Shown here piece by piece: positions 17,715-64,000 of a DNA stretch of 64,000 bases (the first letter of the stretch is position 1; each line of letters opens with the position of its first letter). Both the position numbers and the translations under genes were made by a program. The notes beneath the pieces were generated by a model that saw only the letters and a program-made list of their open reading frames with translations, had not been told where the DNA came from and searched no databases. This stretch comes from Bryopsis sp. KO-2023 (Eukaryota; Chlorophyta; Ulvophyceae; Bryopsidales; Bryopsidaceae): NCBI GenBank assembly GCA_030272585.1, contig BSYQ01000015.1:372001-436000 (forward strand), read 5' to 3'.

Positions 17715-17719
17715 TCGAG

Positions 17720-18211: not shown

Positions 18212-18345
18212 CACAAACAGCAAATCAACCCCAAAACAGAAACAGCAAATCAACCCAAAAACAGAAACAGCAAATCAACCCAAAACAGAAACAGCAAATC
18301 AACCCAAAAACAGAAACAGCAAATCAACCCAAAAACAGAAGTCTC
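18212..18345. repeat. 24-25-bp minisatellite in chromovirus 3' region
   Basis: About five tandem copies of a unit containing AAACAGCAAATCAACCC, between ORF3 and the 3' LTR. On the element's sense strand it is a T/G-rich tandem array. Confidence 0.85.
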
Positions 18346-18428
18346 ACACAAAAACCCATCAAAAACATCCAACTGCATAATCATCCCAGATTATCCCAAA
18401 TCAGCCCCAGATCATTCCACAGATTAAT

Positions 18429-19163: not shown

Positions 19164-19383
19164 GTTTTTTCCTTACTGACTTCTGGTGTAGAACCTCTAA
19201 TATACTGTCCTTTACTCATATGTGTTACTGACGAGGTCGCCACTTACTACCTCGTGGATTCGAGTAGACCCGACGTCTCTCCGACGTTGACGCGGATATT
19301 TTCGCGTAGGACTACGTCGATAGTATCTATTTTAAGGTTTATTAATGACACTGCCACTTCTACGATCGTGAATCGTAGCTCTG

Positions 19384-19454
19384 GTACGGTGGCTTAGTTC
19401 ACTAGAGCGTGACTCTAGTCTGAGAGGTCGCGGGTTCGAATCCCGGTCTCTGCA
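19384..19454 (+). other. tRNA-like sequence, antisense inside chromovirus
   Basis: Contains an A-box-like TGGCTTAGTTC, a D-arm that can pair (GCTT with GAGC), and a perfect B box GGTTCGAATCC within CGGGTTCGAATCCCG, followed by TCTCTGCA. The 5' acceptor strand does not pair with the 3' end and the anticodon arm is poor, so a functional tRNA is unlikely. It is similar to the tRNA-like boxes in the element's own LTRs but lies on the opposite strand. Confidence 0.55.
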
Positions 19455-19738
19455 AGTGGGTTCTTTTTGGTTCATGGTATTCCATGAATATCCTTTCGTC
19501 AATAATACATAAGAGTAATTATTATTTGTAGTAATAATTTACTACCTCGTACTACTAGTTTTACTATGCTTGTAAAGTATATTCGTAGATTTAATTACGA
19601 GATAACACCACGGATCTCGCAGCCGCTACGGATAGTGTGACTAAGGCTCGACGGTGCCGTTATGTTATAAAGGTCGTGCACTGCCTTTATAACACCTTCC
19701 CTTAATCCTCCGTCGCCATCACCATTAGTACATCGGTT

Positions 19739-26040: not shown

Positions 26041-26782
26041 CGTGCTCGTCTACCGACGAGTTTAGAACAAGTGTGACTGTAGTAATAAACCAGATTTGAA
26101 GTAGAAGAATGTTTTTGACTTGTCCCTGGCTATTTGGCCTTGCTGTACGTAAGTCGTTTTAGAGATAGCCAAAAATAGAGTGGCCGACACGTCGTGCCAG
26201 TTCCTGTCGCTAGCAGGAATAAAATAGGTCGCACAGATAGATTCTGTCGACACAGTTAAACTTAACTTCGGCCTTACGCCTGGGTAAACGTCGTCGACTC
26301 AGTAGACTACGTCTGGTCGCGACTTAGGGAGGTAAACAGTGTGATTCCGACGAACACGCTGATGTATGACGTGTGTCGTCGTCTGCACTGCGCGTCTGGA
26401 ACTTCCAGTCGCTGTCTGCTTGATAGAGAACTGTTTATAGACCTCCTACTGGGTCGTGAACCAGAACGATTACGTTCTTGCGTTCCTGCACGTTAGCTGT
26501 AGGCCTGTCGAACTTAGTCGACTGCGAATTTCTGATTACAGATTTCGCTAGGGTCGTCTGAGGGTAGCCTACACGTTTCTATACGTGAGGGAAACACGTT
26601 TATCGTTTTGTAGAGTCGCTTCGCCTTTCCTGCGTGAAACAGAAATTGATATCAGAGTAACTGCAGCGAGCCTTTCACTTATAACCTCGGCTCTGGCGCT
26701 TTCCTCTTTCGCTTCCACCTTTAGGATCACTTTTACTTTTGCTAAGAAAACTTCGGCGTCGTCGTCGACTTAGGAGCTCTAG
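26041..26782 (-). other. Chromovirus 5' leader
   Basis: About 740 bp between the primer-binding site and the gag start. Only short frames are present and none has a recognisable domain. It probably carries packaging and translation signals. Confidence 0.5.
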
Positions 26783-26795
26783 CTCCGAAACCAGT
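26783..26795 (-). other. Primer-binding site of chromovirus
   Basis: TGGTTTCGGAGC on the minus strand, beginning two bases inside the 5' LTR boundary. It is identical to that of the outer element. Confidence 0.8.
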
Positions 26796-27102
26796 TGATA
26801 CGGGCGAGAAACAATAGACAACAAGAACATTTGATTACATCGGGTAGCCTCTTAAATAGGCTCTAGATTCACAACAGAGTTCCACCCAGTCACCGGAATT
26901 CCAAGGGAATTCCGTCCGACACTATCCCACACCGTTCCACCTCAGCCTAGTCAGCTCCACCCCACTCCCACTCACCCAAACTACGCTCTCGCCCAAAGCA
27001 GGGCTTGAACTCGTGACCTCCCCGACTGGATACACTATCCAGTGCACTAAGCCAGCTCACTGGCCTGGGGGTTCACGGTATAATACGAGTTCCTTCGTAT
27101 TA
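26796..27102 (-). repeat. 5' LTR of chromovirus
   Basis: 307 bp, identical to 17720-18026, bounded outside by target duplication TCGAG and inside by the primer-binding site. It carries the same tRNA-like boxes at about 26996-27066. Confidence 0.95.
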
Positions 27103-28427
27103 TCGAGCGTCACCGTCCCTCGCACGTTCTCCTTGCTTCCGTTGAACCCGGTCAGCGTTAACACTCCTTTCGGAGGAGCGACTCCCCATCCGTGTCTTTG
27201 ACAAACCTTCCACGGCATGATGGAGCATCCACTTCCACTGTCGACCAACGCTTCGAAGAGTTGATTACTTCCTCTCTGTTCTCCTTCCAACCTGAGTTTC
27301 ACACGAAGCTGCTTGCGCACTGTATCTCCAGCGGGTGTCCCTGCTGCGACCGAATGGCACGCCGACGACGACTGCTCGTTTTGTATTGCCTCCAGCAGCT
27401 CGCCGAAAGCATCGTCGTCCACGCTCGCCACCTGCGCTCTCCTCTTCGTCCGGCACTGCGCTTCCCAGTGCCCTTTCCGTCCGCAAAACTGGCAGAAAGG
27501 GGTCTCGCCTGTCCGAGTAGGTGGCCGGTCCGCCACCAGAACTTTCGTTCCCGCATTAGGTTCTGCTTTAGCCTCCACTTTCCCTTCTGTCTTTCCCTCC
27601 TCATCCTTCTTCACTTCCGCGAGCACTGCTTCCCTGTACTCCGTCCTCCTCTTCATTCGATCCAACAGCTCCCGAAGTCCGCTGAAGGTCAGTTTTTCGA
27701 ACTCTGTTTCCACCACAACGCGGCTCAACACTCTTCCCGGTAACCGGGCTACGAGTAACCTGACCGCTTTTTTCTCCTCTTCCACCTCCGCTGCTTGTCC
27801 AGTGTTTAAAAACATCAAGAAATAACGCTGCAAAAATTCCAACTCCGTCTCCCCCTCCGTTTGTTGCAGCCGCCGAAGTCTGTCCAACGTGGCTGATCCC
27901 TCCGTCGAAACCGAAGCCGCAGGCGCCGCGCTCCCGAGCTCCAAAACTTCCCTTCTCATCGCCGTCTCTGTTCTACGCCGCCGTAACCATGCAGAACCCT
28001 TGTCTAGGAACTTCAGGAGGTACCCCAGCAGAAGCGAGGAGGCGATCCCAGCTCCGACCAGGTTGGCGTTGGATCCCCGCAGGACACCCCAGAGCTTGTG
28101 CATCCTGTCTGCAAGCTGCACAAGCTCCAGGGTGTCCCACGCAGCAGCGGGGTTCGGTGAAGGGGAGGGTAGGGCACGATGTGAGTGTCGATGTCTGATC
28201 GACCACATCAGCCTCTGCCAGAGCTCGTGTGGAGACGTTCTGGGCGTGTGAGGCGTAGAGAATGGAGGAGGTGATGGGGGATACGTTGCTGGCGCCCTTC
28301 CGGCTGGTGTTGCCGGCGCCGCATTTTGATCTGATATCGTCGGTGGTCGCTGTAACAGCAGCGACATACCGGCTAGTAGAGCCAAGCCCCCAAAGGCCAG
28401 GATCCACCCTGTTCGCTCCGAAACCAT
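27103..28427 (-). CDS. Outer element gag-protease part of polyprotein (interrupted)
   Basis: N-terminal part of the outer element's polyprotein. The ATG spans the LTR/primer-binding-site junction. Two hydrophobic segments occur at about residues 7-25 and 123-141, separated by a Pro-rich stretch, which is unusual for a Gag. A CCHC zinc knuckle (CQFCGRKGHWEAQC) lies at about 312-325 and the aspartic protease motif LVDSGSG at about 394-400. The frame is then cut by the nested element. The reading phase at the cut agrees with that of the downstream piece at 17714-13052, so the two were one frame of about 1995 codons. Confidence 0.85.
28415..28426 (-). other. Primer-binding site of outer element
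   Basis: TGGTTTCGGAGC on the minus strand, immediately after the 5' LTR. It is complementary to a tRNA 3' end reading GCUCCGAAACCA. The same 12 bases serve the inner element and nearly the same serve the TRIM. The primer tRNA cannot be named from this window. Confidence 0.8.
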
Positions 28428-28752
28428 GTTGTTACTGGAAGAACGAGCCTTCCGCAAAAAAAGTCTTACAACAAAAAGACAACCCCGAACTCCCGTTCAC
28501 AGACTTTCCTTCCCGACTCACTCAACTCTCACACTTCCTCCACTGACTCATACCTCGTACTTCTAACGTAAAACCCCTACTGCCATGGGATTCTCACCCG
28601 CACTGACCAGTCGATTCAACAGATTTGACATCGCTCTCAGAGTCAAATCGTGTGGTAGTACTTTCATTAGAAATGAGTGTCCGTTGTGTGGATTTGTTGA
28701 TGTGACGCTCTTATGTCTGTCTTTCAGTACTTGTGTTCTACCCGGTCCAACA
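28427..28752 (-). repeat. 5' LTR of outer retrotransposon
   Basis: 326 bp, matching 12527-12852. Its sense-strand end abuts the primer-binding site, and the last base of the LTR is the A of the gag start codon. Confidence 0.95.
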
Positions 28753-47768: not shown

Positions 47769-48554
47769 CCATACTAGGGATCCGACACCGATATGTCGGC
47801 GTCCGACTTTTCCGACAACCGATAACAGTCGGTCCCAGACAGTTCCGATATTTCCGACCTCCGACATAACCGTTCCGACTTTGTCGATGTACCGATCTGA
47901 TCGGCCCGACTATACTGTATCGGCCCGATTGTTCCGATAAATAACGGCCGACTGCCCAGTTCCTGCTTGAAAACCAGATCGGATCGGGGTCGGGGTCGGC
48001 GTTTTCCGACTTGAACGGTCCTTCTCCGACAAAGTCGGAGTGACGCCGTGCACAAACCTCCCGAGGCTGTCGATATATTTGGAGCAGTTCCATACAGCAC
48101 GTAATAACAGAGTCAGCGATGTGGCCCACAACACGGTGGTCGGAGTCCAGGTCGGCATCAGATCTGCACCGCCGATTTCATCGGAAACACCGACTTTACG
48201 CCTTTCCTACCGATCATGATCGGACGTCGCCGACTAGCGCTCCGATCAAAATGAGGCGCCGACTTTTTTGTCGGCCGACTATGCCGATCCCAGCTCCAGA
48301 CTCAGATCGGATCGGTGTCGGGATCGGGTCAGCCGACCTTTAGTCGGGTCGGACGCCGATGTCCGATAGTCGGTCCGACTTTGACGCCGACATCCGACTG
48401 TCGGCCCGATTTTTGAAGATTTCAGAATATCGAAACAGGACCGACTTTTTTCAACTTTCCGAGAATAATAGATTCGTGAAAATCCGGTTCCGATCCGACC
48501 CCGTTCAGACCTGTTTACAGCTGGCCGATATTTGCCGACTGTATCCATAGTATG
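47769..48554. mobile_element. TCCGAC-word foldback element
   Basis: 786 bp composed largely of TCCGAC/GTCGG and CCGAT/ATCGG words in both orientations. The ends CATACTAGGGAT (47770-47781) and its near complement ATCCATAGTATG (48543-48554) form inverted termini. The flanks share CTTGCAG (47762-47768 and 48555-48561). It has no coding capacity. Confidence 0.7.
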
Positions 48555-48561
48555 CTTGCAG

Positions 48562-49739
48562 CTCTTTGATGGGAGGTATTTCATCGTAACGCAAACCCGT
48601 ACCCTCCATTCTCCGGACTTGACTAATGTTATCTTTTAAAGTTATTAAACTTGGTGCCGTTTGTGAAATGACGTTCAAGTCAACATGGTTTAATCCGGTG
48701 CAATTCTCGTGATGATGAAACGTATATCACGTCTAAACAAAAGTTTATAGTGGTGTTATGTTAATAGCAGGTGATGAATGAGAACTGATTCTCTCTCCAT
48801 ATATATGATATGCGACCTATATATAGTCAATTATGCAGGGCTTCAAAAAACGATAGTTCAAGGTTCATTAGGTAAGATGACTTAAAAGCTATAATTAGCT
48901 ACTTAATGGATACACCATCATAAAAGGTTGACGGAGCTTGAAAGTAGTTTAGTAATGCGTCATAGATGTTTTATCATGAGAATGAAACTTCTTCCAAAGT
49001 TGGGATAACCACTGGTGTGGATGTGTGAGAGTAGTTTTGTGGAAGATGAGATAACCCCCATCCCCACCTGCTTTGGTCATTTTAATTAGGGTCCTTTATG
49101 TTACAGGGGGAGGGGGGGGAGGTTTGGATTTCTTTTCTCAAGAGCCTATGCATTATTTATATATTGTTTCTATTTTGTAGAACATGAGGAGGTATATTAT
49201 AGAAGATATTGATTGAAATAACTTTGCCTACTTTCTCGAGATCGTTTCGTGTGACGATACATTAGTTTGATAGTGCAATAATGTTTTGTAACTATTAAGG
49301 TCAGTAGCACTAGATATCTGTTTGGGTAACCTATTTTATGTGAGATTGATATTCTTTTGCACCATGTGATGAATTAAGATAGCATTTATGAGCATTCAAC
49401 ATTAACTTAACGCTTCGACCAAGAATAGTGCTTCCCAAGTTTGAGGGTGATGGTGGGGATAGTAGGATATGGCAACCTATAATGTATAGGGTGGATTTAA
49501 AGGCGGAAAAATATTCGTGTTGAAAGATTAAGTCCGAACTGTCAAATTTGGACCGATATATATAGGCCTTTTTAACTAAGCAAGAGATAGGTCGCAAAGA
49601 GGCTTGGTCATGGCGGTTCCCCGACTTTCTGTCCGATTCGATCTAGTCGAAATACTTGGGAATTTATTTGGCCTGGACCGGTTGAAACGGGTTGAATTAG
49701 TCTAGTGCAATGACATTTGGTTCGCTTTGGAGTTTCATG
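48562..49739. other. AT-rich gene-free region
   Basis: About 1.2 kb, AT-rich, with no coding signal or delimited repeat that I can support. Confidence 0.5.
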
Positions 49740-50309
49740 CAGTGGTGGGCTGCACAAGACAGATGCACATAACAAGGTTCTGTCCAAGTTTTGTGCACTG
49801 TGAGCGCCAAAGCGGTAAACGAACAAAATGAGGCAGTAGTGGACGAAAGGAAGTGGTGCTGTGTAACGTGGGGTGGTGCGGTAGTGAAGGAATCTAGTGG
49901 TTGAAAGGGAAACGAGTGACTGGCTTAGAATAGTTCACTACTGTTTGTGGCTATTATTGATTAGTCGTGGGAAGGTATAAGTTCGAAGTGAAAAGCTTGT
50001 AAACAAGAGACAGCGAACGTTTCGCGTCGAGACTTCGCCTTAAATAGCTACTGTGCGCTCATTTTATTTAAGTTGTTACAGCACCCTGTGCAGGTCTGTC
50101 CTGTGCAGCGAAATTCCACAGGCAGGACAAAACAGAGTTTCTGTGCACAGCAGAACAGAAGATCCGCACAAAATTTGCACAAAATTTACACAAATCGTGC
50201 TTGTGCTTAGCTGTATAGTCCGCGCACGTGTGCAACACAGGTCCGACCTGTGTCGCGCACGGGAACTCTATCCTATCCTGTCCTGTGCACAGGGATCTCA
50301 GCCCACCTG
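49740..50309. repeat. Degenerate CTGTGCACAG-word element
   Basis: Begins CAGTGGTGGGCTGCACA, the left terminus of the complete copies at 52680 and 53232, and ends CTCAGCCCACCTG, similar to their right ends. CTGTGC/GCACAG words occur at both ends, and the middle (49810-50080) is unrelated. No target duplication was found, so it may be two partial copies or an interrupted one. Confidence 0.55.
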
Positions 50310-50644
50310 TAGTGAATCCGCCTGCGGACCGCTATTGTGGGCTGCTGGCTGTGAACTGCAAGCCTGAAACGGCTTGGAGGGAAAGAATAGACGACTTGGA
50401 AGCGAGACAAAGGGACTTCAATCCCAAAGTAAGGTTACAAGAACGTCCAAACCCCAAGAACTTATATATTACCCTAGCAGCCTTGATCCTAACTGATTAT
50501 AGGCTGTAACATGAGTCTGCATCAACACTGCAAGGCATCAAACCTTGCAGTCCTTTCAATCAGAGCCCAGCTCAGCCCCACGGCCATTCCTGTGGTGCTG
50601 AGCAACCTTCTAGAACATTCTAGCTGCCAGCTCAGTAGTCCACA

Positions 50645-50780
50645 TACTACTTCACTGCCAGCACACCCTGACTTACTGTATGCTGCGTCAGGGCAGCCAG
50701 ACTCCTATCTAAAGTAATGCAGAACTGTCAGCAAGCCTGCTAACGTACTGCAGAGCTGGCAGAAACCCTGAATCGCTACA
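50645..50780. repeat. Dispersed repeat, copy 1
   Basis: The stretch from CTGCCAGCACACCCT to TACTGCAGAGCT is similar to 57475-57595 in the same orientation. The type is unknown; no termini were resolved. Confidence 0.6.
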
Positions 50781-51775
50781 CCACCACTGGTTTCATGTTA
50801 TCATATATTCAACAGTATCTTTTTTGCGTCAAATCTTGTTTCTCTCCGCTCATTTCGAAAACTCCAAACATCGCTATTTCTACGTGACAGTAATGACGTA
50901 GTTTCAGTTGGTGAATTTGAATCCAAAAAGCGTTTTGGGTTTCTGAAGAGATTGGTACAGAAATAATGCAACTCTTACATTCAATGTAGATAAAATACTC
51001 TTTTTACTAAGTCTCTTCATCATAGCACGTTGATCGGGGGGGGGGGGGGGGGTGATGGATTTTATGGATCCTAGCGTTTAGCTGGCTTAAGGCCATGCAT
51101 TCCCACGACTTATTATTAGTTTTGATACCACCACAAATGGTGTCATCACCTGTGACAGATTGTGGATCGAACGGGGGTTTAGTGGCGAGTGTTTAGTGGA
51201 GAGTTTATTTGCGGATTGGGTTATTGTGGGGCTAAGTAGATTAAGTGATTTACTTGGTTTGTTCCTACCAATTATGGAGTTTGGGAAGATCAGTTTGGAT
51301 CGTTGTAACCCTGAGTAGTTGTGTACCGGATTAGGGAGAAGCGAGTACAAATGGGGTCTTGTCGTTTGAGATACATTCGACTTGGATATTTTGTAAGTTT
51401 ATTCGATCGTTTCACCGGGCGTGTTGTTCTACCACAACCACAACCAAAGTCTCGTCACCTTACCTTTGGCGTGTAGGACACTTTTTAGCATCACTTCTTT
51501 GTATATATCTTTAAGGGCCTGAAAAGTTTCAAGAGAAATTGTTCACAAGTAAGACTCTTTTCCTCTAATAAATATTCTCAAAGATTGCTCTTTCTTCCCG
51601 CAATGATAGTGCAAGAACATCGCTTTGTCTATTTGACTTTTGGGATTGGTGGGAATGCAAACTTCATAGGTATCATCACAAGCTCCCCTAATCGAATAAG
51701 TCGATGGGTCAATGGGTTCTTTCGGTTTCCCATCCAAATTAATTTCTAATTTGAAAAAAAACAAGACCCCCCTTA
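50781..51775. other. Gene-free region with a long G run
   Basis: About 1 kb without a gene or delimited repeat that I can support. It holds an uninterrupted run of about 16 G at around 51037-51052. A minus-strand frame in 51543-51770 has protein-like composition but no recognisable family. Confidence 0.4.
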
Positions 51776-51780
51776 CATAG

Positions 51781-52070
51781 CTGGGCAGCAACCGGTTTGT
51801 ACCGTACCGTACCGTAACGCACACGGCCGGTACGGTAACGTGTTTGGTTGTTGCAACGTCCGGTCGGTACGTGCAACAACCAAACACGTTACCGTACCGA
51901 CTAGGCGGTACTCATAACGCAAAAGCGTTGTTGCAACTTGTTGCGTTATGAGTAACGTGTGCACCGACGGGTGTAACATCTGCACCGAGGAAAGACGTTA
52001 CAACAACGCTCGGTTACGTTACGTGTAACGATGTAACCCTTTGACACGTTACAACAACGACTAATATTGT
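51781..52070. repeat. GTACCG/CGTTAC-word inverted-repeat region
   Basis: Starts with tandem TACCG words. It contains an inverted pair, GGTACGGTAACGTGTTTGG and its complement, separated by about 30 bp (51828-51905), then GTTACAACAACG words. Termini were not resolved. Confidence 0.6.
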
Positions 52071-52074
52071 TATA

Positions 52075-52587
52075 TACCGTATTTTCTCTAATAAAAACCC
52101 AGGGGTACTATTGTTTCAATGTACCCCCAGGGGGGTGTCACTATTGGAGAGTGGGTCACTATTGGAGAGTGGGTCACTATTGGAGAGTGGGTCACTATTA
52201 GAGACAGGGCTTGTATTTTTTCAATGTACCCCAAAGAGGGGACACTATTGGAAGAAGGTCACTATAAGTGCTGAGTCACTGCGAAAATTATTCAAAAAAT
52301 GTGTCCATTAATGTGTTACAGTCCTATGAACAGTTGGGGAGTGATTTCGCGACGTGTCGTGGTGCAGGCGAGGGGGGCGTTTCGTCACCAACTGTCAGAA
52401 ATTGCGATCGAAAGAAAATCGTTCGCCGTAACGCGACAAACGCGCCACTATCGAACGTCTCCAAAAGTGACCCTGGGTCACTCTTGGAGACGGGGCTTGT
52501 ATTCTTTCAACCCCCCCCGCGCCCTGCGTCACTATTGGAGAGTGCGACACTGCTAGAGAGTGCGACAGTGGTAGAGAAAATACGGTA
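52075..52587. mobile_element. MITE with CCGTATTTTCTCTA termini
   Basis: About 510 bp with inverted termini ACCGTATTTTCTCTA / TAGAGAAAATACGGT flanked by TA. Its interior has at least four tandem copies of an ~18-bp unit (GAGTGGGTCACTATTG) and further CACTATTGGAGAG words. It shares the TACCGTA terminus type with the MITE at 31276. Confidence 0.82.
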
Positions 52588-52595
52588 TATTTTTT

Positions 52596-52640
52596 TTGTA
52601 TGATTGACGTGAGCCAAGCTCACCAGCCACCGACTGGAGG
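52596..52640. repeat. Short dispersed repeat, copy 1
   Basis: About 45 bp including TGACGTGAGCCAAGC and CACCAGCCACCGACT, repeated at 57212-57255. Its nature is unknown. Confidence 0.6.
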
Positions 52641-52679
52641 TGTTATGCCCTCCTTGCCTGAGTGTGCCGCCTCCACTAG

Positions 52680-53063
52680 CAGTGGTGGGCTGCACAGGAC
52701 AGACCTGTGCATCGCACAGAACAGGGTTCTGTACAGGTTCTGTGCACCCTGTGCTGTTCTGTCCTGTGGAGCGCAATTCCACAGGCCAGAACAGGACAGA
52801 CTGTCTGTGCGCAGAACAGAGTCGGACCTGTGCGCACAGGCGCACAGACTGTACAGCACAGGACAGAAAGTGCACGGAAAGTGCACAGAAAGCACACAGA
52901 ATCTGCACAGAAAGTGCACAGACACGTGCACAGACACGTGCACAGACACGGTCTGTCCTGTGCTGTAAAGTCTGTGCGCCTGTGCGCACAGGTCTGACCC
53001 TGTGCACAGAACAGACAGTCTGTTCTGTCCTGTCCTGTGCACAGGGGTCCCAGCCCATGACTG
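52680..53063. mobile_element. hAT-type non-autonomous element built of CTGTGCACAG words
   Basis: 384 bp bounded by the 8-bp target duplication TCCACTAG (52672-52679 and 53064-53071). The left end is CAGTGGTGGGCTGCACAGG and the right end is CAGCCCATGACTG, giving imperfect CAG...CTG inverted termini. The 8-bp duplication and CAG termini are diagnostic of the hAT superfamily. The interior is almost entirely CTGTGC/GCACAG/CCTGTC words, with long inverted arms (about 52824-52865 against 52952-52993). Open frames across it are low-complexity artefacts. Confidence 0.88.
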
Positions 53064-53262
53064 TCCACTAGCCACGTGGGTGGCGTGGTGTAGTGGGTGG
53101 TCGATGTCACATCCCCCTGATGGGTGATGTGACTGGACAGGGTGTCCGCCTAGCTTGCTAGGTTCCTCCACGTGATTGATGGGACCCATGAGGTTGGAGG
53201 GTTAAAGGACTTCAAGGGGCTGTCCAGGGGGCAGTCATGGGCTGCACAGGACAGACCCCTGT

Positions 53263-53780
53263 TGATACGGCACAGCCCGCAAAGGGGGCGGGCCGGTCCA
53301 CCAACGTCCCGTATCATGTATCATTTGGTTTCGGAGCCGAACTTGCGATCCGAAGGTCACAAGTTCGAGTCCTAGCGAGGCCATGGAAGTTGAGAGTGAG
53401 TTGGCGCCTCTGACCCGAGAGTGGTAGTAACGAGAGGTGAAAGAGCATGAGGATCACTGCGAAGGAGGGGAGGGGGCTGAGATCATCACAGTGATCGCCG
53501 CCGCAGAGCAAGGCAAAAGACCATAAGCTCAAAAGACTAGACGGATCAAAGGGATAAGAACAAAGGATCAGAGGATCACAAGAAAGATCCTGGAGAACCC
53601 CCGAATAGACCCGCGAGAGAACGGTAACCCGGTAATCGCAGAGAGGGTCAAGGAGAATGGAGTAACGGGCACGAGGAGAAGGTGGTCGAGGGCGACCACT
53701 GGCCCGGGGGGGGACGAGATGATACGGCACAGCCCGCAAAGGGGGCGGGCCGGTCCACCAACGTCCCGTATCGTGTATCA
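53263..53780 (+). mobile_element. TRIM: miniature LTR element with 61-bp terminal repeats
   Basis: 518 bp. Direct terminal repeats of 61 bp (53263-53323 and 53720-53780) each run TGATACGG...GTATCA and differ at one visible base. The 5-bp duplication CCTGT flanks it (53258-53262 and 53781-53785). TTGGTTTCGGAGCC follows the left repeat as a primer-binding site. The purine tract GGGGGGGGACGAGA precedes the right repeat. There is no coding capacity, so it must be mobilised in trans. Confidence 0.9.
53327..53385 (+). other. tRNA-like segment in the TRIM
   Basis: Contains the primer-binding site and, downstream, AAGTTCGAGTCC, a B-box-like stretch within GGTCACAAGTTCGAGTCC. It resembles the tRNA-like boxes of the chromovirus LTRs. 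Confidence 0.5.
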
Positions 53781-54223
53781 CCTGTCCTGTGCATCGCACA
53801 GGACAGGGTTCTGTGCAGGTTCTGTGCACCCTGTGCTGTCCTGTCCTGTGCAGCGGAATTGCACAGGCCAGGACAGAACAGACTGTCTGTTCTGTGCACA
53901 GGGTCAGACCTGTGCTGCACAGGTGCACAGACCTGCACAGCACAGCACAGAACTGCACAGAATCTGCACAGAACTGCACAGAATCTGCACAGATTTTGCA
54001 CAGAATCTGCACAGAACTGCACAGAAACTGCACAGATTTTGCACAGACCCTGTCTGTGCTGTGCTGTACAGGTCTGTGCACCTGTGCAGCACAGGTCTGA
54101 CCCTGTGCACAGAACAGACAGTCTGTTCTGTCCTGTCCTGTGCACAGAGGTCTCAGCCCATGTCTGCCAGGGGGCTTCTTTTGGCGACAAGGTCGCGCAG
54201 GAGAGGTTCTAAACAAGAGGCTA

Positions 54224-54390
54224 TCGGTCGACAGAGGGATTCGAACTCGGGTTGGCTAAGCCCAAGTCGAAGGCACTTAATCAATAGCGGACCCCGCCAC
54301 AGGGACGCTCAAATGGTGGCTGTTACCTTTAAGTAACCCGAGTTACTTAAACCGTTTAACCCGAGTTCGAATCCCCCTTGAGTCGACCGA
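54224..54390. mobile_element. Foldback element with Pol III B boxes in both arms
   Basis: About 167 bp. The left arm TCGGTCGACAGAGGGATTCG continues to AACTCGGGTT; the right arm from 54358 is its complement with a small insertion. Each arm contains GAGTTCGAATCC, a B-box match. The interior resembles 57290-57375. Confidence 0.7.
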
Positions 54391-54911
54391 CAGACCTGGG
54401 TACCGGCAAATTTTAAAGGACCGGACCGGACCGGAAACCCTTTCTTAGACCGGATTTGACCTTTACTAGACGGGTGGGAGACCGGTCTAGACAGGTCAAA
54501 TCCGGTCTAAGGAAGGTCAAATCCGGTCTAGTAAAGGAACACCTTTCTTAGACCGTACTTGACCTGGTTTCCTTTTTTTTCTCGATTTCTTTCCTGTCCA
54601 GACCGGTCTGACCTGTCTGGACAGGTTGTCGCCTGTCTAGTACCGGTCTGACCTGGGCTGGACCGGACCGGCAGCGAAAAACCGGTCCGGTCCGGTCCAA
54701 CCTGTCTATGGACCGGTCGACCTGTCCGCTCCTGTCCGGACCAGCGAAAAAACGCCGGTCCTTTCAAAACCGGACAAGTCACGACCGGTCCAGTCAACCT
54801 CGAAAATCTGCAGAAATGAGGACCGGTTTTCTGACAGATTTTCCGGTCCATAGACAGGTTGGACCGGACCGGACCGGTTTTTCGCTGCCGGTCCGGTCCA
54901 GCCCAGGTCTG
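54391..54911. mobile_element. GACCGG/GACCTGTC-word element
   Basis: 521 bp with 10-bp inverted termini CAGACCTGGG / CCCAGGTCTG. The interior consists of GACCGG, ACCGGTC, GACCTGTC and GGTCAAATCCGG words in both orientations. No target duplication was found, so an 8-bp insertion is not proven here. Confidence 0.65.
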
Positions 54912-56573
54912 CTCTCACATTTAACACCACCTTTATTGCTCTACTTGCTGAACAATCATAAAACTCCCCAAATGCTCCATCACATATGTAAGGTAAAAAT
55001 AAAACCACTTCACTATTGGTACTATCGTGGGGGGGCGTTATGTAACATCGAAGCGTTGTTGTAACGGGGTGAGTTGGGGTTTGTATAACGTCCGCACCGA
55101 CAAAACACATTACAACAATGCTTCTCCCTGACGTTCCCTCATCACGTGATACGGAGTGGGAAGTCTCCGTCGGTCACACTCGCACGCAAACTCACACGCA
55201 CGAATAAACCGCCCGAGAGATAGTTACAGAGCAAAGAACGTCACATCAAACGCCAACCACTATTTATAGCATGGAGGGCTGACTCACTTCTCTGCCTGCT
55301 TCAACCCTGTCCTTACTGCTCACCAAAGGCACGCGGCCCCAAAGATTTGAACTTGCAATGTCACAACCGGCTGGAGTGACCAAGCGTGAAAGAATAAATA
55401 GAATGATTACAATGGCGTGGAGAACGCCTTAAGTATAGTCAAATGTAGTACAAGTCAGTCACATGTAACTCACCCGTCCCATTGATGTGACTAGTGAGCT
55501 GACATGTGGTACAATCGTCATAGGCGTCCCCGTCGATGATGGATAGGTACCCGCTGTTAAGATAACCCGTCGTATCAGGTGGAGTTTTTTTGTGCGGTCA
55601 ACCACTTCATGTCTAACCTCCCTTTCATCCCTAGATTCTTCCTCTTCAAACCAAGGAGAGATTTCCTCTAATATATCTTCATCTCGCAAATCTGCAGAGT
55701 TTCTAAATTGTCCTTCAGCTCCAACCACATGAAAATGTATTTTTCCTCCTCAAGTGCATGCACCACTTCGATAATTGTATCATCACCACTGAGTTCCACA
55801 AAAGTAATCCCCCGTTATAAGACCAGGCCTGTTCTCTGACGAAAATCGGGTGTAATGCCCAACTCTGGCTAAGCGTTGTGAAGAGGGGTGTGGTGGTGGG
55901 AGACTCGTCAGAGAGGGGAGGAGCTAAACAAGAAACAATAATTCCAGAAAACGTTAGTGTGCCCTATTGAACACTTGACGCCGTGACGTCATGACCCTGA
56001 AAGTTTCAGGCTGAAACAACCAGTACGATTGTACTACCAAAGTCATACTACCATCACCGGCTGTAACATCGGGTGTTACAGAGGGGGAGGTCTTAAGAAA
56101 AATCGCGACAAATTGGGTTCTCTTGTCCCAATAAAAGACAAAATTACATTCGTTACCCCCGACACCACACTATTTCATTTTTAAGCTTGCAGTTGGTTTG
56201 TTTGTTGTTCCAATGGGTCACACAATGCCTTTAATCCGGTGCTTACATTTGATCTGTTCATTTATTTGTCCAAATCCATTAACTCCAATCAACTTGTCCA
56301 AGGCTTCCAAGCCTGTATCCCATATGGGTAAAAATGCCCCAAATGGGTTGTGATCTCAAAAAAAGAGAAAAAAAACAAACACACCCCAACATAACCAACA
56401 AACCCTCAAACCAATCAAAAACGAGAAAAAGAAGGGAGGGAGGGTGGGACAGAAAAAACAAAAAGAATACCCGCCGCAATAAGCCCGCCCCATTTATACG
56501 CAAGCATAATTGAAATATGTGAATCAAGATCAACTGGGTTTCATTTTTAAGCTTGCAGTTGGTTCGTTTGTTG
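54912..56573. other. Repeat-rich region without a supported gene
   Basis: Holds a fragment with TAACGTC/GTTGTTGTAACG words (about 55030-55130). A short minus-strand frame at 55459-55728 has no recognisable family. A ~36-bp direct repeat (TTTCATTTTTAAGCTTGCAG core) occurs at about 56173 and 56538. Confidence 0.4.
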
Positions 56574-56725
56574 CAGTGGTGGGTTGAACATGACAAACCC
56601 TTGTTCTGTGCATCGCACAGAACCCTGTTCTATACGGGGTCTATGCACCCTGTGCGAGTCTGTCCCGTGCACGGGGGGGGGGTATTCTGACTTGTGCAGG
56701 GTCTGCGTGGGTCTGACCAGTAAAC
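56574..56725. repeat. Partial CTGTGCACAG-word element
   Basis: Begins CAGTGGTGGGTTGAAC, the left terminus of the 52680 family, and includes TGCATCGCACAGAAC. The right end is missing. Confidence 0.55.
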
Positions 56726-57125
56726 CTGGGCGCCGGCAAGTTTTAAAGGACCGGACCGGAAACCCTTTCTTAGACCGTACTTGACCTGTCTAGCAGACGT
56801 GGGCGCCGGCAAGTTTTAAAGGACCGGACCGGACCGGAAAACCTGTCTTGGACCGGATTTGACCTTTCTTAGACAGGTCAAACCGGTCTGGAAAGGTCAA
56901 ATCCGGTCTAGTAAAGAACACCTTTCTTAGACCGGATTTGACCTTTCTAGACCGGTCTGACCTGTCCAGACAGGTTGTCGCCTGTCTAGTACGGTCATAC
57001 TCGTGTGACCTGTTTTAGACCGGTGTGACCCTGTTTTAGACCGATGTGACCCTGTTTTAGACCGATGTGACGCCCAATGTGACCTGTTTTAGACCGACCT
57101 GGCACCTGTCTAGAACAGGTCACAC
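56726..57125. repeat. GACCGG-word element copies
   Basis: Two left-end-like starts (near 56729 and 56790), each with GGGCGCCGGCAAGTTTTAAA, followed by ACCGGAC and GACCTGTC words. It is related to 54391-54911. The right end resolves into repeated TGTGACCTGTTTTAGACCG units. Confidence 0.6.
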
Positions 57126-57211
57126 AATTAAGCACTTTTTAATGTGTTAATCGACTGAGAACTGATTCAATTGATTAAAGAACGAAGTATTATTTATTAT
57201 TTGCATTTTTA

Positions 57212-57412
57212 ATGTATGAATGACGTGAGCCAAGCCCACCAGCCACCGACTAGAGGGAGTCGGTCGACTCAAGGAGGATTCGAACCCGGGTTGGCTAAGC
57301 CCGAGTCGAAGGCACTATCACTAGTGGACCCCACCACAGGGACGCTCAAGTGGGGGCCGTTACCTTTAAGTACCCGTTCTTTTTCATTACTAAAGTAGGT
57401 ACTTAAGAGGAC
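57212..57412. repeat. Short dispersed repeat copy 2 plus tRNA-box foldback relic
   Basis: 57212-57255 repeats 52596-52640. 57259-57412 resembles the left arm and core of the 54224 foldback (GGATTCGAACCCGGGTTGGC, a B box on the minus strand), but the right arm is absent. Confidence 0.6.
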
Positions 57413-57474
57413 AACGCCGTTAACCGTTAACGGTCGTTGTCGTTGTCGCAACAACGACTTCGGCACAACTCTGC

Positions 57475-57595
57475 TGCCAGCACACCCTAACTAACTGTAC
57501 GCTGCCTTCTTTGGGACCAGACTCCTACTTAAAGTACTGCAAGACTGTTAGCGGCTTGCTGACGTACTGCAGAGCTAGGAACTGCCTTAAAACTA
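57475..57595. repeat. Dispersed repeat, copy 2
   Basis: Similar to 50645-50780, from CTGCCAGCACACCCT to TACTGCAGAGCT. Confidence 0.6.
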
Positions 57596-58101
57596 TCGAA
57601 CTACCTTGTAGACAAGCACCTGCATGCAGGAAACGCCTGCAGGTGTGTTATATTCCTCCCCACCTAAAAGACAGTAAGTTCCGACACTGTTGCTTGGGGA
57701 AAACATTAGTTCAAAGCAATTTCTTTTCGACTAAAATCCACTGTTCCCTTCTTCCTCTTCTTCCACTCCAAAGAAAATCAATGCCAACAACAAACAAGAC
57801 CAACACTCCTCACTCTACTTCTTCACCCTATATTGCATAACCTCTTTCGGATTTAATTCGTAGTTGCGAGAACCCGGTGGTGCATTTCCATTTTTGAGCT
57901 CAACCTTCATAGTGGCGGTTGTTACCGAGGCGGAAGTTGTCAGTTTGGCCAATTTGCACCCTGTCTCGGCCACATCCGCTGCGTGGCACATCGAACAATG
58001 CTCGTACAACGAGACACCCGGACATCCTGTTTGCAGGTTAACCGCCACCGAAAAATCGTTTTTTCTTCCGCATTATCAAGAATGGCAATGGTATCTGCCA
58101 C

Positions 58102-58207
58102 CAGAGTTGTGCCGAAGTCGTTTTTGCGACAACGACAACGGCCGTTAACGGCGTTAACGGTTAACGGCCGTTGTCGTTGTCGCAAAAACGACGTCGGCAC
58201 GACTCTG
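58102..58207. mobile_element. GTTAACGG-word hairpin element
   Basis: 106 bp, CAGAGTTGTGCCG...CGGCACGACTCTG, self-complementary over nearly its full length through GACAACGACAACGGCCGTTAACG. The termini resemble those of the 61273 hAT-type element. No target duplication was seen. Unrelated ordinary sequence separates it from the partial copy at 57410-57480. Confidence 0.65.
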
Positions 58208-58300
58208 ATACATTTTCCAATAATTTATAATTTTTTCAAAATCTCAAACGCATGATTGTCGACGAGCTGATTGGCGGTTGGGAGCGTCCCTTGGAGCCGG

Positions 58301-58330
58301 AGTTGTGCGCCGTTGCAACGGCGCACAACT
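58301..58330. repeat. Perfect 30-bp palindrome with hAT-like ends
   Basis: AGTTGTGCGCCGTTG followed by its exact complement. The ends match the AGTTGTGCGCC terminus of the 61273 element, so it looks like an extreme deletion derivative. Confidence 0.75.
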
Positions 58331-59030
58331 CTGTCTGCCACCCAACATCGACGCCAGCAGGCTTCCGAGGCGCATAATCTGTGTCGCCCGCAACTTAATG
58401 TCCTCACCGGAAACCTCTTGCGGAAGCCAAGACTGCACCCTTGTTGACTCTCAAAAAATTTGAACTTTGGCTCCGCCATTGCTTTTGGCTCCGCAATTGT
58501 CTTTGGCTCTGCAATTGCCTTTGGTTCCGCAATTGCTTTTGGTGGTGTATCTGAATTAGATTCTTCCGATTTTCAATCTTCGATTTCCAGTGAGGCGCCC
58601 TGAGCAGTAGTCATGCCACCCCCAATGTCGCCATGCCCCAGTACGACACTTTGCAGCGACGGAGGGGTCTACGTCGCCTTATCCATGGTAGCGAGTTGCT
58701 ACACGGTATATACCGTACGCACAGACTTCAATGTGCCAGCGGTTTCAGTGTCACAATGTTTCGTGATGTGCCAAGCCTGTTGTAACGCGTAACATGTGTG
58801 CCAATGTGCCAACGCTGGTTTTCACACGCCAGTTCATAAAAAAAATCCACCAAACCAAAGTGAATTACATTGCACCACCACCAAACAACCAACCTTCCGA
58901 ATTTCACCAGAATTCGAAAACCTTTCAAAAAACAGAAGGGGAAACGAAACTAGGAGTCCAATTCCCCGTCCCTAACATCAAAAAAACCCCGATTGGTCAC
59001 ATCAATCTCCACAGGTTCTGATAGTGAAGC
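58331..59030. other. Gene-free region
   Basis: About 700 bp with short low-complexity repeats (TTTGGCTCCGCAATTG units near 58485-58540). No coding signal was recognised. Confidence 0.45.
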
Positions 59031-59204
59031 TTGTGGGTGACGCAATAGTGGTCGGCTGTGTTGGTTGGATTCGTGATAACTTGCTGGCTAACGCAAGTAT
59101 ACTTGTGGGGTTTGTTGGTTTAGACAACTCTCTAGTTAACGCAGTTGTGAACGCTACTAGAGCACTTGGTTGGGAAAGTGATTGCGTTAGGCAAACACTT
59201 TAAC

Positions 59205-59235
<31 letters not shown>

Positions 59236-59448
59236 AGCGGGAACACACCAATCCCACGAATCCCGAGTTCTTACAAAATAACTATGAGTGTCAAATGAAC
59301 GAGTGGGCCTCTTAAGTACCCCTAAGTGTAGTACGTTGACGCATGCCCGAACCTCTGGGTCTAATCTGTCTTACTCGTGAACCCACATGCGTCAGCCACC
59401 CTCGGCTCTATCCCAAACTACCTCGTGAGCGCTAAAATATACTAACAG
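59031..59448. repeat. ~420-bp direct repeat, copy A (with CA microsatellite)
   Basis: Runs from TTGTGGGTGACGCAATAG to GAGCGCTAAAATATACTAAC and includes a (CA)n tract at about 59202-59236. Copy B is at 61167-61272 plus 62627-62907, in the same orientation. The pair brackets a transposase pseudogene. Confidence 0.85.
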
Positions 59449-60893
59449 GTTCTGCAAGATCCGAGTTGCTCAATAAAGCCTCGGTTGGTAAGTCCACGGT
59501 CTCCGTCAAATCCACTTCCATAACCCCACTTGGTCCCATTTCGGAACTCGGCCCCTCTCTTTCATCCACAGTTTGAGCGTTTGCATCATCGTTCGGGGAC
59601 TCGATCGGGTTCACTTCACCCAAGTTCAAGAGTCTTTCAAACAGTTCGTCCAACGGCACTTCGTCACCGTCCACGGCATCCTCATCATCATGTGGATCTT
59701 GCTCAATTCCCTCGGGTGTTGAATCCCAACGACCACTACTTAAAAGAAAGCTCCTAGCAATAGCCCGACACGCTTCATTCCCTTTTTCTTCCAAGAATGC
59801 ATCCAACAGCCCGGTCTTGGCCCAACACTTCTCAATCATCTCCCTTCGACTCAACATCTCTTGTTGTGCCACTCCTAGCCATTTTAATAGACGAATCCTG
59901 AGTGACTTTTTGTCGGTTGGCAGGTTCATCTCGTCCTGTGGAATTCCTTAATTCATCAAATGAACGACAACCTCAGCCAATTCTGCCCCGAATTCACGTT
60001 TTACAACGTGTTTTAAAACACGGTTGAGGGCCTGGTTGCATGGTTGGGCCTTGCTTGTGGTGCCAGGTGGAACGAACACGAGATGTCAGTTCTTGAATTG
60101 GTCGTTAAACCAACCCAAAAAACTTTCCGACACATGAACGGACCAACAATCCATCAAAAGCACCACAGGGAGGGTTTTGGGGTCTCAGCCCTCGCATGTT
60201 CCAGCTACATGTGGTAGAATGGATGTTTCAATAAACTGTTGAAGGCAACGCTGATTTGACCAGTGCTTTCCGGTACCACTCCACGTAGCGTGCACTCCCT
60301 CGGCCTTCGCCTCTTCCACACATTGTTGTGAGGGCAACACACGGTTTGTCTTTCCCGCAAATATTATTTGACAGTCCAACAACTGACCGTCAGCTGAAAT
60401 ACAGTATGTTCCTGTCACCATTCTTTTGTCCGATCCCCCCACCAAAGGAACTTCCTTTGCGCCTGTCCTCTCCAACGTTCGTGCCCCCCCCCCCAGCCAT
60501 CAACTGTAATTCAGTTTCGTCCATATTTAAAACACGTTCTTTCGGAATATCAAATGTTTTGATCAAATAAGCAACTCGTAATATGAACTTCTCCACTTTG
60601 GCCTCCCAGTCCACCGGTAACTTGCTAGCACATGTTGTGCCCACTCTCCACGATAACCCAAGGTGGTTCATAGCAAACGTCCTCACTGTTTGGGATGCAA
60701 ACTTCATAGAATTTTTAGGGTGATGTTTTTTGAATGCCCCAATGATCAGACTTCGCAAAACAGTGAGCGAAAGGGGTGCACCTCTTTTTCTGATTGCACC
60801 AACTGCTTGTGAAACCGAATCAGCAACATCTGGGAAGCGTTCTGCCCAATGTTCCATTTTTTTTTTTGGGGGGGGGGGTCCCATCCTTTCCAA
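59432..60893 (-). pseudogene. Degenerate pogo/Tigger-type (DDE) transposase
   Basis: Minus-strand remnant of a DDE transposase. The N-terminal piece (60893 down to about 60490) has a helix-rich DNA-binding part and the segment VLNMDETELQLM, the first catalytic Asp region. A run of 11 C at 60484-60494 coincides with a frame change. The next piece (to 60185) reads GTYCISADGQLL and IIFAGK, normal for the family. A stop follows, then VVLLMDCWSVHV (second Asp), another stop, and a PPGTTSKAQPCNQAL segment where the usual third acidic residue reads Asn. A third stop precedes the acidic C-terminal piece at 59929-59432. The frameshift, three stops and lost acidic residue make it inactive. Confidence 0.75.
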
Positions 60894-61166
60894 AATTCAG
60901 CCCTTTTCATTGCAGCACGTGTGGGTACATATGTTACAAGTGATCACCGAGATGTCTAGTAAGCACTAGCTAGAGCTACAGACTAGCTATGGGCACTAGT
61001 GATAGCCTAGTCAGAGCTTAAGGTCCATAGGATCCCAATAGGAGATCCTATAGCTCAAGAACCCTGGTGCCTCGCCCTAATGATATTAGTCAAGGGTCCC
61101 ATCAATGAGTGGGGGTTTGATGGGTTAAGGAGGCTTCGAGGGAGGGTTCTGGGAGGTTTTTGTAAC
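60894..61166. other. Spacer with CTAG-rich stretch
   Basis: About 270 bp. Contains repeated CTAG words (60957-61010) and a short inverted pair around ATAGGATC / GATCCTAT. No gene. Confidence 0.45.
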
Positions 61167-62907
61167 ATTGTGGGTGACGCAATAGTGGTTGGCTGTGTTA
61201 GATGGATTCGTGATAACTTGCGGGCTGACGCAAGTATGCTTGTGGGGTTTGTTGGTTTAGATAACTCTCTAGCAGAGTTGTGCGCCAGGCCGATTTTCCT
61301 TAACGATAACGGAACGGCAACGGCAACGGCAACGGCAATTAACGGCAGTTAATTGCCGTGAAAACCGTTGCCGTTCCGTTGTTGCACAACGGTTTAACGG
61401 CCGTTGCAACGGCCACCGTTAACGTCGCTTCGTGTGTACTTGAAAGCCTTAGTAAAAGTATGATTAATATAGAATCCACCATGCCTTCCACGTTCCCGCT
61501 CGTTTCGCGAGTGAGAAAGGGAATTAAGACGTCAGAAAATATAGCCAAGGGGAAGAATAAGTTTTTTCGAGCACGTCGCACTTTATCGCGTGCGAAACGA
61601 GCAAGAAACGAGGGAGATATCCCAGTTTCTGTGGAAAATACAGAAACTGGGATATCTCCCTCGTTTCTTGCTCGTTTCGCACGCGATAAAGTGTGACGTG
61701 CTCGAAAAACGTTTTTCTTCAGTCTAGTTACGTTAACACATCAAAAAAGACCTCTTGGAAGGGAAGTTCCGGTTATGTAAGTCGAGATCTAATAAGATCT
61801 ATTTTTAGGGTTATGGATAGTTCCGTCGTTGTGCTTTCTAGTTCCGCCAAAGTTCCGCAAAAGGCGAAACTTCCACGGGTCTCTTCACGAAGAAGAGGGT
61901 GAACATAGCCAGTTCCGCCTTTTCCAAATACCTCCTCAAGTTTTTTATTTCAGTTGGTTCTAATTCTGAAAATAGCATTTGGAAAAGGCGGAACTTACTC
62001 TCTCTCGCCCTCTTCTTCGTGAAAAGACCCGTGGAAGTTCCGCTTTTTTGGGAACTTTGGCGGCAGTGAAAGCGTCACAACGACGAAAGTTCTTATCAAC
62101 TTAAAAATAGATCTTATACAGATCTTCACTTACACCATCGGTCGTTTAAGTTAAAGAGTCGTTTTCGACCTGTAAAAGGCAGCTAAGACAAAAGAAAAAA
62201 TGTTTCCGAGCACGTCGCACTTTGTCGCGTGCGAAACGAGCAAGAAACGAGGGAGATATCCCAGTTTCTGTATTTTCCACAGAAACTGGGATATCTCCCT
62301 CGTTTCTTGCTCGTTTCGCACGCGACAAAGTGCGACGTGCTCGGAAAGTTCTCTTCTTTCGTTTGGTTTTATCCCCAAACGGGTTCACTACTTTCCTCAC
62401 CCGCGAAACGAGCGAGACACGAACGGGACGGTGGATTGTACTCTTAATTTAGTAACATTGACCGTTGTAATCGATGGCAACGGCAGGTGTCGTTAATAAC
62501 GGCTGTGTGATCGTTAACGGTTAATTAACGGGTTTTAACGGGTTTGCACAACGCTCGCGACAACGGAACGGCAACGGCGCCGTTATTAACGGAGCCGTTG
62601 CAACGGCGCACAACTCTGCTCTCTAGTTAACGCGGTTGTGAACGTTACTAGAGCACTTAGGTGGAAGTGATTGCGGCAGGCAAACACTTAGACACACACA
62701 CACAAGCGGGAACACACCACTCCCACGAATCCCGGTTACAAGTAAACTAAGAATGTCAACTTAACGAGTGGGTCTCTTTTATACCCCTAAGTGTAGTACA
62801 CTGACGCATGCCCCAACCTCTGGGTCTAATCTGTCTAACATATGAATCCCACATGCGTCAGCTACCCAGACTACCTCGTGAGCGCTAAAACACTAACATT
62901 TGTGATC
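61167..62907. repeat. ~420-bp direct repeat, copy B, split by a hAT-type foldback
   Basis: 61167-61272 and 62627-62907 together match 59031-59448. They are separated by the foldback element 61273-62618, whose 8-bp duplication comes from this repeat. Confidence 0.85.
61273..62618. mobile_element. 1.35-kb hAT-type foldback element
   Basis: 1346 bp bounded by the 8-bp duplication CTCTCTAG (61265-61272 and 62619-62626), with 14-bp perfect inverted termini CAGAGTTGTGCGCC. Both flanks rejoin copy B of the direct repeat, which confirms the insertion. Inside are AACGGC words at both ends, two copies of a ~65-bp-arm hairpin (61568-61704 and 62207-62343), and a central inverted pair (about 61864-61902 against 62007-62042). 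These mirror each other around the element midpoint near 61946, so the whole element is one long palindrome with hairpins nested in it. It has no coding capacity. Confidence 0.92.
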
Positions 62908-63374
62908 GGTCCGATAAACCGATCCCGATTAAATCAGACCGATTTTAATACAAAAGAACTCGTATTATATCGTGAACCCCTAGGTTAGTGAGCTGGCTTA
63001 GTGCATTGGATAGTGTATCTTATCGGGGAGGTCACAGGTTCGAGTCTTGCTTTGGGTGAGTGGGAGTGGGGTGGAGCTGATTAGGCTGAGGTGGAACGGT
63101 GTGGGATAGTGTCGGACGGAATTCCCTTGGAATTCCGGTGACTAGGTGGAATTCTGTCGTGAATTTAGAGCCTATTTAAGAGGCGACCCAATGTAATCAA
63201 GTGTCTTTATTGTCTTAAGTTTCTCGCCCGTATCAGATTTTGATCGACCGATCATTCGATGATCGGCATGATCGGATCGGATTGGTAGTCGGGATCGGGA
63301 TCGGCGACCGATCATCGATCATAATCGGTCGCCCAAATGATCGGAAACCGATTAAATCGGGATCAGATCCCTGC
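62908..63374. mobile_element. GATCGG-word element interrupted by a solo LTR
   Basis: 62908-62945 and 63241-63374 are made of GATCGG/CCGATC/ATCGGTC words in both orientations, ending GATCAGATCCCTG. A solo chromovirus LTR sits inside. The left terminus is not clear and no target duplication was found for the outer element. Confidence 0.6.
62946..63235 (+). repeat. Solo LTR of the chromovirus family
   Basis: 290 bp, TAATAC...GTATCA in sense orientation, flanked by the 5-bp duplication GATTT (62941-62945 and 63236-63240). It is clearly homologous to, but diverged from, the 307-bp LTRs at 17720 and 26796, and keeps tRNA-like A and B boxes (TGGCTTAGTGCATTGG, AGGTTCGAGTC). It marks an older insertion reduced by LTR-LTR recombination. 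Confidence 0.92.
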
Positions 63375-64000
63375 TATGCCTATCGTCCACTAAATACTCC
63401 AACCAGATCAGCACAATCTCCCCCACTAGTCCCCCTTTTTCTCACATCTTGGTTTCCCACCTTTTCTCACAACTCACTTAATCGACCCATTATCACACGC
63501 CTTAACTGCCACGCCTCATTTTCACAAACACTTGTGCAGATGTTTCGAACAGGGATGCTACACGCACGAAAAATCGTGTCGTGTCGTGCACGTGTAGAGT
63601 TGTTATCGCTCGGGAGGACTGACGTCCGCGAGCGACGTCTCCTATCTCGGGAAAGAGTGAGGCGACGGCGGAACGGTCACACAAAATCGCACGGGTCACA
63701 GACTCGGGGTCACACCAATAGATCACTGAAAAGCAAGGTTACATCAAGCGTCCCATCTTTTAACTCCCAGTTCGACTTTCCCGAGGGTGACTAACCACCC
63801 GTAACACTCCCACTACCCTGACTTACAGCCGCCAGTTCTACTCCTGACTCACTCACACACAGGTCCAGACCATAGCATGTTCCCACTCAGACTCGAACCC
63901 AGAACCTCAGTCTCGCAAGTCCTAATCTGGTTGATAGAACCACTGTCTTGACTCTGTGCTCTTGCGATGGTTTCCTCGCTGTAGTTCAGTAGTACCTCCT
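63375..64000. other. Terminal region with a tRNA-like stretch
   Basis: No supported gene. On the minus strand 63870-63955 has TGGTTCTATCAACCAG and TGGGTTCGAGTC in the order and spacing of A and B boxes, so a tRNA-derived repeat may begin here and continue past the window. Confidence 0.4.

Follow-up and report, generated by a model that had tools for sequence, protein, structure and literature searches.

The window analysed here, a 64,000-nucleotide stretch of the green alga Bryopsis sp. KO-2023 (positions 372001 to 436000 of contig C15, in an assembly of 91,088,769 bases and 28 contigs), contains a block of short elements composed largely of a few short words in both orientations. These elements are probably non-autonomous miniature inverted-repeat transposable elements (MITEs), cut down from larger hAT elements in one family (G) or folded back out of them in two others (A and C), where the larger elements carry family-specific arrays of half-sites whose words are putative transposase-binding sites. 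The distinctive point is that the word found at the element ends is used again in the transposase introns of four families. It is this presence of the family word in the introns of its own transposase that is new; the ends are a long form of the known hAT plan.

The clustering of word-built, nearly self-complementary elements in one block, as described in a first-pass annotation of the sequence, was confirmed by two measures. The fraction of 8-mers that have their reverse complement within the same 300-base interval exceeds 0.2 solely in intervals that start from 51701 to 62201, with a maximum of 0.50 and a 90th percentile of 0.06 over the whole window; E1, E2 and the element at 62.9 kb (Table 1) fall below this mark. 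A scan for 8-bp duplications around CA...TG ends, with an inverted repeat matching at 9 or more of 12 bases and a length of 60 to 6000 bases, returned nine pairs with exact duplications, compared with none when the sequence was reversed and an average of 0.3 over ten block shuffles. With one mismatch tolerated, the figures were 21, 5 and 2.2, respectively. Six of the nine exact pairs delimit coherent elements (E1 to E6), where three target duplications had been reported previously; the other three pairs join words from two different elements. No 8-bp duplication was found in the window for C1, C2, the F-type piece or the 62.9-kb element, and Rfam gave no match anywhere in the window at gathering thresholds.

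The words of the window belong to five families, namely A (CTGTGC), B (AACGGC), C (CCTGTC/CCGGTC), F (CGTTAC/CGGTAC) and G (CCGATC). At least six had been counted initially, but TCCGAC and GATCGG represent one lineage, which reduces the six words to five families. A sixth hAT family, T (TTACGG), lies outside the window, in L004 and L067 (labels of this form denote loci fetched from the same genome, and an element given as running from one locus into another spans both). Members of the hAT superfamily have short terminal inverted repeats, typically CAG. The CAG-like ends first ascribed to all of the elements are indeed present in A, B, C and F elements, larger or small, but G elements start with CATA and the F-type piece of the window with CATAG. 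Across the genome, the end patterns of A, B and C were matched 236 (120+116), 201 (103+98) and 36 (15+21) times, these being counts of ends and not of elements or copies, while each reversed pattern gave 0 matches. For family A, 40 of 327 candidates were scored, which gives a minimum of 40 copies, with identities of 96-100%. An exact 8-bp duplication was found by script in 28 of 30 fetched A loci; L033 had none, and for L031, the window's own A copy, no ends were found by script and the exact duplication was found by the window scan. The small elements are therefore short, non-coding and repeated, with ends and duplications, as is characteristic of MITEs. A plain satellite array, the refutation that had been named beforehand, was rejected, since the copies occupy dispersed sites with ends and exact duplications.

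At the genome level, at least 150 hAT C-terminal domains (PF05699) are present (150 scored of 185 candidates). Larger partners of 5.2-7.6 kb, with a hAT transposase domain, 8-bp duplications and their own words at both ends, were found for A, C, F and G. All five of these larger elements, two of them from G, have exact 8-bp duplications together with word arrays at both ends (5 of 5), and they are called putatively autonomous-type. PF05699 is above the cut-off in the G, A, C, F and T partners, a G word array also lies 5' of the transposase in L061 and L062, and no duplication was found for the T element in L067. Taken with the 8-bp duplications and the CAG or CATA ends, these partners support the assignment of the window elements to the hAT type, as originally suggested. 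The comparison of each family word with the subterminal word of a larger hAT with the same ends, recommended as a check, gave a correspondence for A, C, F and G. With regard to B, a 5.3-kb pair of ends in L077 was rejected as an autonomous element, as two separate B elements lie inside it; L069, of another hAT class, was rejected as it has no inverted word array.

Alignments to the larger elements suggest how the small ones arose. E1 aligns in order with the G element of L064/L065, its bases 1-240 with the 5' side and 281-785 with the 3' side at about 70% identity, and on this alignment it derives by a colinear internal deletion from an element related to that one. In contrast to this cut-down form, the A MITE (412-base copy, L034) consists of the 5' end (76 bases, 88%), the inverted 3' end (92 bases, 90%) and the 3' end (166 bases, 90%) of the L078 element, and E3 has the same build. 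C1 consists of the 3' end (240 bases, 74%), the inverted 5' end (141 bases, 90%) and the 5' end (82 bases, 90%) of the L070/L080 element; in these comparisons of words and alignments the limits of C1 were placed 3 bases to the right, and those in Table 1 were re-read. The A and C derivatives, as shown by their alignments, thus have one end joined to an inverted duplication of the opposite end. Long inverted repeats dominate the A elements (arms 53860-53951/54053-54144) and C1 (arms 54650-54726/54833-54909), which gives them a foldback form; E1 is not of this build. The inverted end duplication would most likely result from gap repair after excision, in which the strand folds back on self-complementary words. 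From the E1 deletion and the end-derived builds of A and C, it follows that most of the word content came with ends that had been word-built beforehand, and the MITEs look word-built because little beyond the arrays was kept. A process that repeatedly makes such elements by amplifying transposase-binding words, as first proposed, is therefore retained in part: the words of A, C, F and G are subterminal hAT words and array size does vary, in an intron that the proposal had not foreseen, but the small elements are not written de novo.

The density of words is family-specific. Own words reach 17-81 per kb and foreign words are mostly at 0 and at most at 7.2, against 0.2-0.4 in positions 1-47000 of the window; the larger A, C and F elements and the two larger G elements carry their word at both ends, as in an Ac-like subterminal array. 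In the counts of spacing, dyads, density and clusters, the C 5' region was extended to L080:1396, about 100 bases beyond the element end at L080:1297, and the A element was taken one base too long in the cluster scans; like the shifted limits of C1, these small deviations leave the interpretation as it is. Spacing was expressed as the mean cosine among words of the same orientation and compared with 1000 random placements, which take no account of common descent of neighbouring words, so that the counts out of 1000 are not strict probabilities. At 10.5 bp, the cosine is 0.41 in A and 0.40 in C, with 0 of 1000 placements as high, 0.23 in F (2 of 1000) and 0.19 in T (10 of 1000). When the ends are taken alone, A (0.64) and C (0.41) are phased at 10.5 bp; for the F ends at 21 bp, 9 of 1000 placements were as high. 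Among the window MITEs phasing is moderate, at 0.27 for A (1 of 1000 placements) and 0.21 for C (12 of 1000). Paired half-sites form dyads of 12-15 bases; in C the commonest length is 14 (40 of 66), in F it is 13 (38 of 51), and steps near 21 recur. The A arrays step at 11 and 21-22, and the C ends also at about 9.5-10, 30 and 43.

These steps in A and at the C ends fit the DNA helix better than units of 21 nucleotides, and they bear on the idea that the arrays act in transcripts, as hairpins, splicing aids or sources of 21-nucleotide phased small RNAs. The elements are strongly self-complementary, the arrays would be transcribed if the introns are, and a step of about 21 is a common small-RNA length. 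Nevertheless, the arrays sit at the DNA ends too, and a dyad with 0-3 bases between its half-sites forms no stable RNA hairpin on itself, so that a role at the RNA level seems quite improbable.

Introns filled with the element's own word are found in the transposase genes of A (two), C (two), F (two) and T (one, in L004). The GT-AG splice sites and intron limits were read by eye in these four families; both sites were read in one F intron and the acceptor alone was pinned in the other. Regularity is greatest in the introns of C and F, with cosines at 21 bp of 0.91 and 0.93, dyads of 13-15 bases (for example CCTGTC-NN-GACAGG) and steps of 19-23 bases with some double or triple steps; their spacers are near random and the partner half-site is kept. 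In A and T, the intron arrays have nearly one orientation and a period near 11 bases. A further F cluster was observed at L068 5983-6057. Among the papers listed, judged by titles and abstract starts and with most subscription papers outside, no clear precedent was found for arrays of a hAT element's own end word in its transposase introns; likewise, nothing on topic was found among those listed, by title or abstract start, for Bryopsis, its order or green-algal hAT MITEs.

One of the F introns is shared by L068 and its relative L081 (87% identity over 490 aligned bases, mostly exon). It measures 623 bases in L081 and 292 in L068, with 19 and 9 dyads, respectively, and in both the steps hold near 21 bp while the spacers change. 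When the dyads are split into a core (CG-T...A-CG) and an inner part, a division made after a first count and on a single intron pair, the core differs at 3/48 positions, the inner part at 20/57 and the spacers at 16/60 (trimmed alignment; Fisher 0.005); with L081 as reference, the values are 1/42, 16/49 and 22/74 (Fisher 0.00014). A second pair was sought for C in L082, where the C intron lies outside the locus and a G-type coding stretch was seen by eye; none of the alignments listed reached the C region. Helical spacing, of about one or two turns in A, in C and in the F introns, together with family specificity and dyad-core constraint, suggests that the words are DNA sites recognised by a dimeric domain encoded by the element, and the half-site arrays would most likely be bound by an N-terminal finger of the transposase.

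Several observations weigh against this reading, whose predicted binding of words by transposase is derived from sequence. At 10.5 bp there is no helical spacing in the G and B words (106 and 314 of 1000), none in the ends alone of G (155 of 1000), F (243 of 1000) and T (693 of 1000), and none in the window MITEs of G, F and B. No larger, autonomous partner was found for B. A zf-BED match in L064 (E 0.027) falls below the Pfam cut-off and none was listed in the Pfam search for the L070, L078 and L062 proteins; a C-x2-C ... H-x4-H spacing is seen in four cases. Of the 7 larger elements scanned, 4 hold internal clusters of the own word and neither the two G elements nor L067 has any; when CGTTAC is used by itself, the F introns yield no cluster that survives a stricter scan. 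Furthermore, unrelated tandem words occupy other stretches of the larger elements, and the first count in the shared intron, made before the split of core and inner part, found whole dyads and spacers to differ alike (30/114 and 23/79).

The last two points, together with the nearly one-orientation repeats near 11 bases in the A and T introns, are what would be expected if slippage and copying had built up short tandem or inverted repeats in non-coding parts, with words that have no function and that the MITEs had simply inherited; unrelated repeats in non-coding stretches do indicate that larger hATs gather repeats in general. Such neutral growth is nevertheless considered unlikely, as it does not account for the recurrence of the end word in the introns of four families, for the near-random spacers and retained partner half-sites of C and F, for the few core differences relative to the spacers, or for steps that remain near 21 bp despite changing spacers.

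Another origin for the intron arrays would be the insertion of same-family MITEs into the transposase gene, where their remnants were turned into introns in an introner-like manner. It is favoured by the different introns that hold arrays in different families and by an F array intron at a place where the C gene runs on (tblastn and reading by eye). However, by eye, no family terminus or duplication lies beside the intron arrays, the intron arrays of C and F show greater regularity than the window MITEs, and the two dyad counts of the shared F intron lean to array growth within an old intron, which makes an introner-like origin very improbable.

For the introns, self-regulation or capture in cis of the element's own transposase is deemed the most likely explanation, although it can be put forward only tentatively from these sequences. 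As a weaker step than the binding of the ends, the intron arrays would probably serve as additional sites at which the enzyme is held back or captured. In a broader and equally tentative form, the transposase introns of at least four hAT families would be built-in arrays of their own binding sites, with C and F dyads set at two helical turns and selected in their cores; this cis module may throttle or capture the transposase as part of an arms race against MITEs that retain little beyond binding sites, and the dyads may also seed the foldback derivatives.

Several known transposons offer a comparison. The maize Ac transposase binds the subterminal hexamer AAACGG cooperatively, and the non-autonomous forms of Ac/Ds include internal deletions that keep the ends (PMC3260210). 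The algal elements are similar, being hATs with a repeated subterminal hexamer and internal-deletion derivatives, but their arrays are longer and denser, the half-sites are often dyads, the word occurs in introns, and the A and C derivatives carry an inverted end copy. In Hermes, two BED domains cooperatively bind a quasi-palindromic pair of subterminal repeats; each end has a handful of repeats, and dyad arrays and intron arrays are not described in the accessible part of that account (PMC10368747). Galileo and other Foldback-type elements have several transposase-binding THAP sites in long repetitive ends (PMC3688188). Their long repetitive ends and foldback form resemble those seen here, whereas Galileo belongs to the P superfamily, uses another domain and has its sites in long tandem repeats instead of a short half-site array (PMC3688188). 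Soybean Tgmt* and other CACTA elements contain direct and reverse subterminal repeats, which vary from family to family and may co-evolve with the protein that binds them (PMC2613891). Unlike the algal elements, they have CACTA ends and a 3-base duplication, and such repeats in introns are not described in the section of the source available (PMC2613891).

Table 1. Elements in the window and larger hAT elements in fetched loci (b, bases; aa, amino acids; TSD, target site duplication)
Feature	Position	Length and content	TSD and ends
E1, G-family MITE	47770..48554	785 b, words CCGAC/CCGATC	TSD CTTGCAGC; ends CATACTAGGGAT / CATACTATGGAT
E2, A-type element	49740..50789	1050 b, words CACAGG/TGCACA, non-word interior	TSD GTTTCATG
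F-type piece	51776..52075, right limit approximate	words CGTTAC/CGGTAC	left end CATAGCTGGGCAGC; no TSD found
E3, A-family MITE	52680..53063	384 b, word CTGTGC	TSD TCCACTAG
E4, A-family MITE	53232..54166	word CTGTGC, split by 518-b insertion	TSD CCAGGGGG
C1, C-family MITE	54391..54911	521 b, words CCGGTC/CCTGTC	CAGACCTGGG at both ends; no TSD
A-type left-end fragment	56574..56716, right limit approximate	from sequence reading	starts CAGTGGTGGGTTGAAC
C2, C-family piece	56794..57130, limit approximate		left end CAGACGTGGGCGCC; right end not found
E5, B-family MITE	58102..58333	232 b, AACGGC; long left hairpin and 36-b right hairpin	TSD TCTGCCAC
E6, B-family element	61273..62618	1346 b, AACGGC words near both ends, inner non-word palindrome	TSD CTCTCTAG
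G-type element	62897..63378, left limit uncertain	CCGATC, non-word middle	right end CATAGCAGGGATC read inward; no TSD
G larger element	L064:2176 into L065	5991 b, single 784 aa open frame	
G larger element	L063:2250 into L066	6850 b, single 839 aa open frame	
A larger element	L078:21 into L079	7556 b	
C larger element	L070:1426 into L080	6873 b	
F larger element	L068:1645-6868	5224 b	

Within the window, part of E2 aligns with the 3' end of the A element in L078, the F-type piece with the L068 3' end (67%) and the 62.9-kb G-type element with the L061 5' end. The insertion that splits E4 (53263-53780) is missing from other A copies; it has direct repeats of about 60 bases (starting at 53263 and 53720; TG...CA; one base apart) and a 5-base duplication, CCTGT, and looks like a long terminal repeat (LTR) element of the terminal-repeat retrotransposon in miniature (TRIM) type. 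The build of E5 recurs in L075 and L077, each with its own duplications, and a 36-base palindrome was rejected as a tiny element of its own, being the right end of a 232-base E5 copy in the locus read (L075/L076). E6 and its relatives (L073, L077) have in common an inner palindrome (61494-61725/62186-62417 in E6) that is not made of AACGGC words. Elsewhere in the window, an AAA-ATPase frame (11151-12326, reverse strand) matches BSKO_13691 of Bryopsis sp. KO-2023 with 100% identity across 89% of its length as query, long frames at 13052-28496 (reverse strand) resemble Ty3-type LTR retrotransposons by eye, and broken frames at 59432-60896 (reverse strand) are DDE-transposase-like by eye, three of these frames having no Pfam match at E 10.

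With regard to the larger elements, the G-type hATs of L061-L064 carry a second, repeat-rich frame of 352-395 amino acids on the strand opposite to the transposase, with a similar core by eye; the one in L064 gave no Pfam match. Two clusters of G-type words (CGATCA/CCGATC) within the A element, at L078:5340-6260, are probably a nested G MITE, and the F element of L068 contains a non-coding stretch of about 270 bases with AACCCA-type words. The C element is flanked by tRNA genes (ARAGORN; L070:952-1365 and L080:1351-1857), Gly and Lys on one side and two Ser and Leu on the other, and a protein search with its transposase returned five proteins, none of them named as Bryopsis.

This genome holds several hAT families whose words change along with their transposases, a natural series for comparing recognition, the length of arrays and their spacing. 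The build of an end with the inverted other end, found in two families (A and C), provides a concrete model for the origin of foldback MITEs, and the question of why certain MITEs contain little else than short words is now directly testable. The intron arrays of the end word would represent a route to self-regulation of the transposase.

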